From NCBI RefSeq assembly GCF_003046545.1, contig NZ_QAAA01000006.1:62001-126000 (forward strand): DNA of 64,000 bases, in the 5' to 3' direction. The stretch's first letter is position 1. Every line of letters starts with the position of its first letter. The notes beneath the pieces were generated by a model, which was not told the origin of the DNA, did no database searches, and was given only the letters and a program-made list of their open reading frames with translations. The stretch comes from Rhodovulum imhoffii (GTDB lineage Bacteria; Pseudomonadota; Alphaproteobacteria; Rhodobacterales; Rhodobacteraceae). Below, piece by piece: positions 51,202-54,200 of this stretch. The translations under genes and the position numbers were made by a program.

Positions 51202-51798
51202 TTAATGGCGGACGATTTCGAACCGGCAGACAGTCGCCCCGCTGGCGGCACAGGCGGTTTCGCGGGTGCTCAGGCGCTTGTCCACCAGCGTCCGGAACAG
51301 GGTATCGAATACGGCCTCATGCCAGATACAAAGCGGCGCGGGCGCGCTTTCGCCCCGGATCAGAGGATTGTCAGTCAGTTCGAATACCATCGGGCGGGTG
51401 GAAACCACGCGAAATGTACCGGAACCTGCGAAGGTCCAACTGTGTCTGGCGATGGCCTTGGCCAGCATCGGCCCTGACAGCGCGGCGGGCAGTGCCTTCA
51501 GCACCTTCTGCGCCAGCGGCGGAATACGGTGGGCAAGAATATACGCCCCCGTCCTGCACCCGGCTTCGCGCAAAAGGCCTGGCGCCGTATCGGGAAGACG
51601 GCGGCGCAACGCACGGTGCATCGTCCCGGCCGGGGCCTCATCCATCAGGCCGGAATCGGAGGGCGCGCCCCCCAGCCCGGAAGCGGCGAGCATCTCATCG
51701 CGCAGGCCCGCCCCCCCGGCCGCCTCCAGTACAGGGAGAAGCTGGAGAACGGCATTGGGGCCGATCCGGCCCGAGGGGCCGGAAGGCGTATCGAACAT
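51202..51798 (-). CDS. bchJ: Bacteriochlorophyll biosynthesis protein BchJ
   Basis: 198 residues with a V4R (4-vinyl reductase-like) domain in the C-terminal half: HSWTFAGSGTFRVVSTRP, then LCIWHEAVFDTLFRTLV and the cysteine-containing ETACAASGATVCRFEI. BchJ was first described as a 4-vinyl reductase; later work points to a helper or substrate-handling role in bacteriochlorophyll synthesis. The ATG shares one base with the bchE stop (TGATG). The N terminus ...RIGPNAVLQLLPVLE is also typical. Confidence 0.92.
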   Translation of the reverse strand: MFDTPSGPSGRIGPNAVLQLLPVLEAAGGAGLRDEMLAASGLGGAPSDSGLMDEAPAGTMHRALRRRLPDTAPGLLREAGCRTGAYILAHRIPPLAQKVLKALPAALSGPMLAKAIARHSWTFAGSGTFRVVSTRPMVFELTDNPLIRGESAPAPLCIWHEAVFDTLFRTLVDKRLSTRETACAASGATVCRFEIVRH

Positions 51799-53432
51799 CA
51801 GGCGTCTTCCATCTGCTGATCACCCCCGCCGCACACGCGGACATCGGCGGCATTATCCGGCATCTTGAAGCTGTCGTCCTGCGACTTGCGCTTGGCCTTG
51901 GCGCGCGCGGCACGATCGGCAGCGGCTTCCCAGTCTTCCACCTGGGCCTTGGCGGGCTTGCGGGACATGTCGAAGTCGAACTTGACCTTGCCCTTCGATT
52001 GCGGCCCCCAGTAATTGTTCTTGCCAAGATCGTAGAAGGTCCGCCCGACCCCGGCCTTGAGGAACGCCTTCAGGCATCCCAGCAGGTAACGGCGGCGGAA
52101 TCCCGTCCCGCGCCAGGGATAATGAAACAGCGCCTTGCGCATGTAGAACCGCCGGTAGTTGTGCATCACGCGGTCCAGAAGCTGGGCGCGGTCCATCGCT
52201 TCGGGTTTCATGATCGGGTTCACGAAGTTGTAACGGCTGTAATCGAAAACCTCGACCTTGTTGTGAAGCTCCTGGAACAGCGGCGTGAAGGGCCAGGGCG
52301 TGTACATGGCCCAGTTGGCAAGGTCCGGCTGCCAGTCCCAGCAGAGCTTGAAGGTTTCCTCAAGCGTCTCTTCTGTCTCGTTGTCGAGCCCGACGATGAA
52401 CTGCGCCTCGGTCAGGATGTCGGCCTCACGCAGCAACTGGATGGCACGCTTGTTGTCCTCGACCTTGGTTTCCTTGTTGAACTGGTCCAGTTTCATCTGG
52501 GCCGCAGCCTCGGTCCCCAGGCTGATATGCACCAGCCCGGCCTTGCGGTAGAAAGGCAGCAGTTCCTCATCCCGCAAGATGTCGGTCACCCGTGTGTTGA
52601 TGCCCCATTTGACCTTGTCCGGCAGGCCCCGGTCGATCAGTTCCTGACAGAACGCGATGAATTTCTTGCGGTTGATGGTCGGCTCCTCGTCCGCGAGGAT
52701 AAAGAAGCCGACATTGTGCTTTTCAACCAGTTCCTCGATCTCGTCGACAACGGCTTTCGGGTCACGAATGCGGTAGTCGCGCCAGAACTTCCACTGGGAA
52801 CAGAACGAACAGGTGAACGGGCAGCCCCGCGCCATGTTCGGAATCGCCACCCGGCAGTTGAGCGGTTCATAAATATACTTGTCCCAGTCGAGGATGTCCC
52901 AGTCGGGCTTGATCCCGTCGAGATCCTTGATCGTGGGCGCCGCGGCGGTCGCCACGATCTCCTCGCCATCGAGAAAGGCAAGCCCCTTGATGTCACGGCG
53001 GCATTCCGGCCAGGCACCGTCCCGAATGGCGTTCATCAGTTCGACAATGATTTCCTCGCCCTCGCCGCGGACGATCGCGTCGATCCACGGGGCTTCGGAA
53101 AGAACCTGCTTGAACATGAAGGTGGCATGAATGCCACCCATGACCCGCACCGCATCGGGGACTTCCTCCCAGGCGACTTCCATCACGCGTTCTGCGGCGT
53201 AGATCGACGGCGTGATCGAGGTTGTGGCCACCACCCGCGGGTTCAGCGCCTTGAGTTGCGCGCGCAAATCGTCTTCGGACAGATTGTCCGTCATCGCATC
53301 GATGAAGTGGATGTCATCATATCCCGCCTGCCGCAACGCCCCGGTCAGATAAGCGACCCAGGCCGGGGGCCATGTTCCGGCGATCTCGGCCCCGCCGGAG
53401 CGATAGTTGGGATGGACAAAGCAAATTCGCAT
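51798..53432 (-). CDS. bchE: Anaerobic Mg-protoporphyrin IX monomethyl ester cyclase
   Basis: Oxygen-independent formation of the fifth ring of bacteriochlorophyll; a B12-binding radical-SAM enzyme. 544 residues. The N-terminal cobalamin-type domain begins [19 protein letters not shown]; the SAM cluster is [14 protein letters not shown] with Cys204, Cys208 and Cys211. The C-terminal extension (DUF4070-like region) carries [19 protein letters not shown]. Start at 53432 fits the family; an upstream in-frame extension is not used. Overlapping PpsR- and FNR-type sites lie upstream, as expected for a gene used at low oxygen. No other photosynthesis genes are in the window. Confidence 0.96.
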
Positions 53433-53474
53433 GGATCGACTCCCCGTGTTTCGCGGCGAACATCGCACATGTCC

Positions 53475-53500
53475 TGTCAACCCAACTTGACACATGTCAA
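53475..53500 (-). promoter_or_regulatory. Overlapping PpsR/CrtJ and FnrL-type sites upstream of bchE
   Basis: TGT-N12-ACA (53475-53492), the PpsR/CrtJ pattern, overlaps TTGACACATGTCAA (53487-53500), which fits TTGAC-N4-GTCAA of FNR/FnrL. The pair lies 43-68 bp before the bchE ATG. Known biology: in Rhodobacter PpsR represses bch genes under oxygen and FnrL activates bchE without oxygen. The overlap means the two could compete. Confidence 0.7.
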
Positions 53501-53540
53501 ATTGATGTCGCCTCCGGGAAGGACAACCGGACGCAGGCCA

Positions 53541-54200
53541 AAACGGCCGGGTAACGTTGCCGGAATAGAAAAGACCCCCAAGCCCACAACGAAGACGATC
53601 CAACCGGAGACGCTGTGCTTGACCACGCCCATCGGGAAATTCTGACGCGCCTCATAAGCCCAGCCGAACACCAGGCCGCCCGTGAAGGTCATGGCGGCGA
53701 CGATCCAGTTCCAACATATCAGATACGCAAAAGAAAGAGGCCCGCATTCAGCACGATCGCGGACCACAAGCCCGGCAACAACACCCCGTAGCGGCGAAAG
53801 AACAACGGGCGGTACAGCACCTTCTGCGGCAGGGCGGAAAGCGGCGGAGAAAGCACGAGCACTGCCGCCAGCAGCCCAGGATTCGTCCACGGCAGCGCAA
53901 AGGCTTTTCCCGGTGCCGTCAGCGCCATGACCGTCATCGCCACCGCCAGCGTCAGCGCCGCGAAGATCGCGACGGCCCGCCAGCCGATTCGCCCGGCCCC
54001 CCGCGCAAGCCGGCCCCACCGGAACCCCGGTGTCAGGTGCAGCAGCCCGATGCCCACCGGCGCCGCAAGGAACAATGCCGCAAACAGCGTCTCGGGCGGC
54101 AGCAGAACTGCGGCCGCCACAGGCGAAATTATGTATAACGCAAAAATTCCACCCAAAGCTGCCGCCGCGACGGCCCCGCTCCCCGATACTGAAACGTCAT
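53541..54200 (-). pseudogene. Decayed CPBP-type intramembrane protease gene
   Basis: Three frames together give one CPBP (CAAX/Abi) membrane protein. From ATG 54200: MTFQYRGAGPSRRQLWVEFL, then a shift near 54130-54145 into ISPVAAAVLLPPETLFAALF and LPQKVLYRPLFFRRYGVLLP, a shift near 53728-53738 (one T short in CTCTTTCTTTTG) into SFAYLICWNWIVAAMTFTGG and [12 protein letters not shown], and a third near 53566-53572 into [10 protein letters not shown]. The family glutamates (EExxxR) are QKVLYR here and the FxxxH histidine is probably Tyr, so the active site is lost too. That argues for real decay rather than sequencing error alone. Confidence 0.7.

Follow-up and report, generated by a model that had tools for sequence, protein, structure and literature searches.

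The bchE promoter of the alphaproteobacterium Rhodovulum imhoffii contains a predicted FNR/FnrL box and a predicted PpsR/CrtJ-type operator that have six bases in common, and comparison with related genera indicates that this overlap is a recurring promoter element of fixed register, that is, an FNR/PpsR promoter with an embedded repressor half-site. The window, by which we mean the whole analyzed stretch of DNA (64,000 nucleotides, positions 62,001-126,000 of contig NZ_QAAA01000006.1), had been the subject of a sequence-only reading in which overlapping PpsR and FnrL sites were proposed upstream of bchE, and this overlap of the two predicted sites is confirmed. A motif scan of the window identified the operator, denoted P1, as TGTCAACCCAACTTGACA (53475-53492); the FNR box is TTGACACATGTCAA (53487-53500), which matches TTGATNNNNATCAA with two mismatches and with the outer TTGA and TCAA intact. 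The bases common to the two sites are TGTCAA when read towards bchE. Given that bchE is encoded on the minus strand, from 53432 to 51798, the two sites together occupy positions 43-68 bp ahead of its start codon; the promoter read towards the gene is TTGACATGTGTCAAGTTGGGTTGACAGGACATGTGCGATGTTCGCCGCGAAACACGGGGAGTCGATCC-ATG, of which the FNR box makes up the first 14 letters. The features of the locus are as follows.

51202..51798, minus strand: bchJ, next after bchE (TIGR02019, 199.8 bits, cut-off 74.3)
51798..53432, minus strand: bchE, oxygen-independent Mg-protoporphyrin IX monomethyl ester cyclase (TIGR02026, 828.7 bits, cut-off 481.35)
53440..53445, minus strand: Shine-Dalgarno-like GGGGAG before the bchE ATG, read from the sequence
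53450..53467, minus strand: remnant of a second operator, P2, TGCGATGTTCGCCGCGAA, with 3 of 6 key bases left
53459..53464, minus strand: predicted -10 hexamer GATGTT, placed by the comparative register
53475..53492, minus strand: P1, predicted PpsR/CrtJ-type operator, TGTCAAGTTGGGTTGACA towards bchE, matching TGTCAN8TGACA at 10 of 10 positions
53487..53492, no strand assigned: six bases common to the FNR box and P1, from the motif positions
53487..53500, minus strand: predicted FNR/FnrL box, TTGACATGTGTCAA read towards bchE, an exact TTGAYNNNNRTCAA

The identification of the gene as bchE in the sequence-only reading holds (TIGR02026, 828.7 bits); its product contains the Pfam B12-binding and Radical_SAM domains and is 89% identical to BchE of R. 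adriaticum, and bchE and bchJ probably form one operon, bchEJ. Genes for both regulators named in that reading are present in the genome, namely PpsR (TIGR02040, 457.7 bits, cut-off 275.4) and a CRP-family protein that contains CAECPIRHRAVCARC near the N-terminus, including the expected cysteines, and that we call FnrL-like from this motif. The aerobic cyclase, AcsF, is encoded in the genome as well; acsF and ppsR are located on contig C7 and not on the bchEJ contig C6, so that bchEJ is apart from both in the assembly. The membrane-protein gene upstream of bchE (53541-54141, minus strand) is split over three reading frames, the last piece running on in the bchE frame with no stop, and is either a decaying gene or the product of assembly errors; in five Rhodovulum relatives (L002, L003, L006, L008 and L010), it is intact and ends 100-107 bp before bchE. 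The minus-strand open reading frame 53477-54019, which reads through the sites, was considered as a real gene end and rejected because the gene is in three frames here.

A chance origin of the overlap is rejected by the genome counts and by the ccoN control and register statistics given below. The short motif TGTN12ACA occurs 8 times in the window against 5.4 expected, which is weak evidence alone; apart from P1, there is none between P1 and the upstream end of the window, and the nearest one lies inside bchE, at 52262. P1 matches all 10 positions of the extended PpsR consensus given in PMC2654016, TGTCAN8TGACA, and no other place in the window matches more than 8. In the 2.9-Mb genome, TTGAYNNNNRTCAA occurs 17 times, compared to 0 with the reversed control, and the composite TTGAYNNNTGTCAAN9ACA has a single match, at the bchE site (control 0). 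A TGTN12ACA within 60 bp of an FNR box of the same genome was found at one of 15 loci, namely bchE; these loci cover 15 of the 17 boxes fully and a 16th in part.

To compare bchE promoters across the family, we used one genome per genus (295 genomes), among which the bchE model matched in 67, at 68 places; one of these (G147:C26) was excluded for want of an N-terminus. Seven of the remaining 67 places were put aside as likely paralogues; this decision was based on the N-termini and on scores of 503-530 bits and was taken while the promoter table could be seen. None of the seven has an FNR box within two mismatches or a P1 or P2 in register. An FNR box is present in 59 of the 60 bchE promoters that remain (56 exact, 3 with one mismatch; 59 of 67 if the paralogues were kept) and, in 56 of the 59, lies 65-79 bp upstream of bchE. 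A TGTN12ACA starting at the ninth base of the FNR box, in a register identical to that of P1 in the window, was detected in 34 of the 59, and a second one, P2, located 24-26 bp beyond the P1 start (offset 32-34 from the box), is exact in 36. Twenty-one genera have P1 only, 23 have P2 only, 13 have both and two have neither in exact form, these two showing CGT...ACA at P1. These two registers account for nearly all the motifs in the 400 bp upstream of the 59 promoters, where 76 TGTN12ACA were counted (34 P1, 36 P2 and 6 elsewhere). The two halves of P1 co-occur (both in 34 genera, TGT only in 9, ACA only in 5, neither in 11; p = 0.0013), and exact P1 is found in 21 of the 23 promoters without P2 versus 13 of the 36 with P2 (p = 3e-5). 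A comparison of the spacing in other bchE promoters had been suggested in the sequence-only reading as a check on the overlap; the register turns out to be fixed (34 of 59), but the overlap is not universal, P1 being absent in 25 of the 59 genera, including an R. sphaeroides-like promoter.

A second, partly overlapping sample consisted of the best 80 of 122 relatives and the window (81 promoters, 8 of which have no box within one mismatch and were excluded from the P1/P2 counts). Among the 73 with a box, P1 was found in 50, P2 in 36, both in 17 and neither in 4. On the BchE protein tree of this sample, at least 17 changes are required for P1 and at least 16 for P2, so that both have turned over often; after correction for kinship, the trade-off between P1 and P2 has the right direction and is not significant (3.5 opposite versus 0.4 same-way pairs, median p 0.25). 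An exact P2 is missing from the window and from nine named Rhodovulum loci (L002-L010), and P2 has decayed in the lineage of the window. All 16 genomes of the genus contain the composite (control 0), and its position at bchE was established for the window and these nine loci. Outside the family, exact P1 was detected in two of six other alphaproteobacterial bchE promoters (L236 and L238), with imperfect FNR boxes, and two of the six (L237 and L239) have neither an exact P1 nor an exact P2; exact P1 is also found in the gammaproteobacterial loci L027 and L066. In a myxococcal MAG (L055), two TGTN12ACA 25 bp apart precede bchE, along with TTGAC-N5-GTCAA, which is one base longer than the FNR box.

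FNR boxes of another gene, ccoN, served as a control (exact boxes only, in the best-scoring 30 of the 260 genomes with ccoN). Among 48 such boxes, TGT at the common place was found once, and ACA, as well as both together, not at all; the respective numbers for bchE are 43, 39 and 34 of 59 (Fisher p = 2e-15, 2e-14 and 4e-12). Among the R. capsulatus FnrL sites in the main-text list of PMC4634722, one of the 32 rows as printed, or two in either orientation, ends in TGTCAA. Together with the ccoN counts, this list implies that FNR boxes as such do not bring the operator along. G at position 10 of the FNR box (52 of 59 bchE boxes, 7 of 48 ccoN boxes) was considered as an imprint of PpsR by itself and rejected: within the genus, every one of the 16 ubiT promoters has an FNR box with this G, and only 3 have a P1-type site. 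The GTCAA half, likewise present in all 16 ubiT boxes, is by itself no PpsR imprint either, and the G was counted only together with the preceding T.

The composite is not confined to bchE: 62 exact matches were found in 54 of the 295 genomes, 32 at bchE and 30 elsewhere (reversed control 0), and 14 of the 16 genomes of the genus carry a second composite. In three of the 16 genomes (G675, G676 and G678; loci L247, L248 and L262), TGTN12ACA lies in the overlapping register upstream of ubiT, a gene of oxygen-independent ubiquinone synthesis (UbiT and UbiU were recognized by NCBIfam in L243); the ubiT locus of the R. imhoffii genome (L261) has AGT...ACA instead. All four examined among the 11 other second composites (L241, L242, L244 and L245) have a putative hemA, for 5-aminolevulinate synthase, nearby, with the composite about 290-370 bp upstream in the opposite orientation and a second TGTN12ACA adjoining. 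In two other genera, the composite precedes a putative bchC (L108) and crtE (L121). In eight further loci (L099, L100, L104, L112, L116, L119, L123 and L128), the composites resemble FNR promoters facing the opposite way, with A in the second position of the hexamer 36 bases on in the reverse reading (8 of 8), and these are probably not PpsR sites.

Class II FNR promoters of Escherichia coli have the box near -41.5, no good -35 element and a -10-like hexamer at a fixed spacing. In 19 of the 23 bchE promoters without P2, a hexamer with A in the second and T in the sixth position begins 36 bases on from the first base of the box, the next register reaching 7 of 23, and this fixed -10-like hexamer would put the center of the FNR box at about -41.5, that is, in the class II geometry. 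With this predicted geometry, the bchE promoter would resemble its E. coli counterparts, from which it differs in having a predicted repressor operator as part of the box. The predicted transcription start in the window is near 53452; relative to this start, P1 spans approximately -40 to -23 and P2 approximately -15 to +3, so that P1 would extend over the -35 region as well as half of the activator site, and P2 would cover the -10 element. The ubiT promoter was considered as confirmation of the -10 register and rejected: TA is present there in 16 of 16 promoters and the sixth T in 0 of 16, which is at best weak support.

We consider it probable that the site acts as a composite operator in a class II promoter activated by FnrL, with P1 competing with the FnrL box and P2 lost in the lineage of the window, and we infer that both proteins bind in R. 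imhoffii and that the promoter responds to oxygen in the following manner. Without oxygen, FnrL would occupy 53487-53500, about 41.5 bp before the start, and recruit RNA polymerase, the promoter offering a predicted -10 element but no good -35. In the presence of oxygen, FnrL would lose its iron-sulphur cluster, and oxidised PpsR would occupy P1 (53475-53492), which takes in the -35 region and half of the FnrL site, so that joint occupancy would be impossible. Since FnrL and PpsR need the same stretch of DNA, they are likely to be mutually exclusive at P1, and the recurring, interlocked layout suggests that two proteins take turns at one spot. In many relatives, PpsR bound to P2 would cover the -10 element and block the polymerase directly, and at least one of the two operators is nearly always kept (57 of 59 genera have an exact one); in the lineage of the window, where P2 is lost, repression would rely on the overlapping P1. 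In a toy model, the effective Hill number for exclusive versus independent binding was 3.98 versus 2.00 with tight binding and 2.73 versus 2.38 with weak binding, so that a sharp switch is possible but depends on the binding affinities. The interpretation in the sequence-only reading, an oxygen switch by mutual blocking, is supported in part: bchE, the genes for both regulators and the fixed register agree with it, as do the functional sites at R. sphaeroides bchE described below, but the lack of the overlap in 25 of 59 genera speaks against a plain either-or switch, as do the persistence of CrtJ at bchE in R. capsulatus and the higher bchEJGP RNA of the R. sphaeroides fnrL mutant (see below). 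More tentatively, and perhaps against the balance of probability, bchE may have two exchangeable PpsR operators that are often gained and lost, P1 as an anti-activator evicting FnrL and P2 as a -10 block, with PpsR acting in window-type lineages as a pure anti-activator from a single operator outside any tandem, and an equivalent arrangement may be emerging at ubiT in some members of the genus.

Both regulators of bchE are already known. Activation of bchE by FnrL is reported in the excerpted text of PMC4634722 and PMC5643017; FnrL of R. sphaeroides binds ahead of bchE, and about 90% of the FnrL-driven activity is lost when a single base of the FNR box is altered, as stated in excerpts of PMC4263372, which also report that bchEJGP transcripts go up, not down, in the fnrL mutant. 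Excerpts of PMC4344238 list a PpsR ChIP-seq site at bchEJ of R. sphaeroides, and those of PMC5362033 describe R. capsulatus CrtJ as still on the bchE promoter in anaerobic photosynthetic growth. The main-text table of direct FnrL targets in R. capsulatus does not include bchE (PMC4634722). The FNR box of the genome G051, TTGACATGCATCAA, has the T of its TCAA at a distance of 57 bases upstream of the ATG, and the P2 sequence there is TGTCAACTGAAATGGACA; the box fits the T mutated at -57 in the R. sphaeroides bchE promoter (PMC4263372, excerpt), and P2 fits the PpsR ChIP-seq motif of bchEJ (PMC4344238, excerpt), the second motif given for bchEJ being located in G051 about 555 bp ahead of codon 2. 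From these fits, G051 probably represents R. sphaeroides or a very close relative, in which the FnrL and PpsR sites do not overlap. The Rhodobacter (Cereibacter) sphaeroides bchEJ(GP) promoter resembles that of the window in the FnrL activation and PpsR repression of one gene and in an equal distance between ATG and box, but has no overlapping P1, its PpsR motif being P2 over the -10 element. Binding of PpsR/CrtJ is described as cooperative and involving two sites (PMC6199135, excerpt), which counts against the proposed mechanism, since the bchE promoter in the window has one exact PpsR-type operator and a second only as the P2 remnant. The pairs of P1 and P2 in 13 of 59 genera are similar to the paired TGTN12ACA 8 bp apart at R. 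capsulatus bchC (PMC6199135, excerpt) and to the paired operators over -35 and -10 at Dinoroseobacter shibae bchF (PMC10890935); in contrast to these tandems, the upstream operator in the window shares bases with an activator box and is the only intact one. A literature search in open-licence papers found no description of a FnrL/PpsR overlap at bchE. FnrL at bchE is reportedly treated by Oh, Eraso and Kaplan (2000) and by Ouchane et al. (2007).

It is also conceivable, albeit unlikely, that both sites work and their overlap is incidental, PpsR repressing only by covering the -35 and -10 elements; FnrL and PpsR would then never compete because their active forms exist under opposite oxygen conditions. 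The 23 of 59 promoters with P2 only, including the R. sphaeroides-like one in which P2 is the ChIP-seq motif, manage without the overlap, almost half of the composite matches (30 of 62) are found elsewhere, and sharing could evolve easily given that the FnrL and PpsR half-sites are alike (GTCA core). However, where P2 is lost, P1 is found in the exact overlapping register in 21 of 23 cases, and none of the 48 ccoN boxes shares bases in this way, which argues against an incidental overlap. We regard it as quite unlikely that a different CRP/FNR regulator (CrpK or RedB, for instance) and not FnrL is the main user of the FNR box. CrpK activates R. sphaeroides bchE via the same box as FnrL (PMC4263372, excerpt), and the R. 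imhoffii genome has 8 HTH_Crp_2 matches, four of them strong (52.8-66.7 bits); nevertheless, among these four, the cysteine-cluster motif near the N-terminus was recognized in the FnrL-like protein alone, although the others may use the box too.

Binding of P1 by a protein other than PpsR appears highly improbable. We know of no report of ubiT as a PpsR target, and three of the 16 genomes in the genus have a TGTN12ACA in the P1 register upstream of this gene, but P1 agrees with the long PpsR consensus at 10 of 10 positions, and in the R. sphaeroides-like promoter P2 corresponds to a PpsR ChIP-seq motif (PMC4344238, excerpt). Least credible of all is the possibility that TTGACA at 53475-53480 (towards bchE), a perfect consensus hexamer, serves as a regular sigma-70 -35 element instead of forming half of a PpsR operator; a similar TTGACA is located 16 bp before TAGACT in L108, ahead of the putative bchC. 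We rejected this assignment on the -10 register counts: there is no conserved -10-like hexamer 16-18 bp downstream (2, 0 and 1 of 23 promoters in registers 42-44), the conserved one being only 10 bp away, and a sigma-70 promoter scan of 53300-53800 yielded no site.

BchE works without oxygen, so that photosynthetic bacteria must turn bchE on at the right oxygen level. The conserved common half-site makes the combination of FnrL and PpsR at one promoter directly testable, and the natural promoters with P1 only, P2 only or both (21, 23 and 13 of 59 genera) are a ready set for distinguishing anti-activation from the blocking of polymerase.
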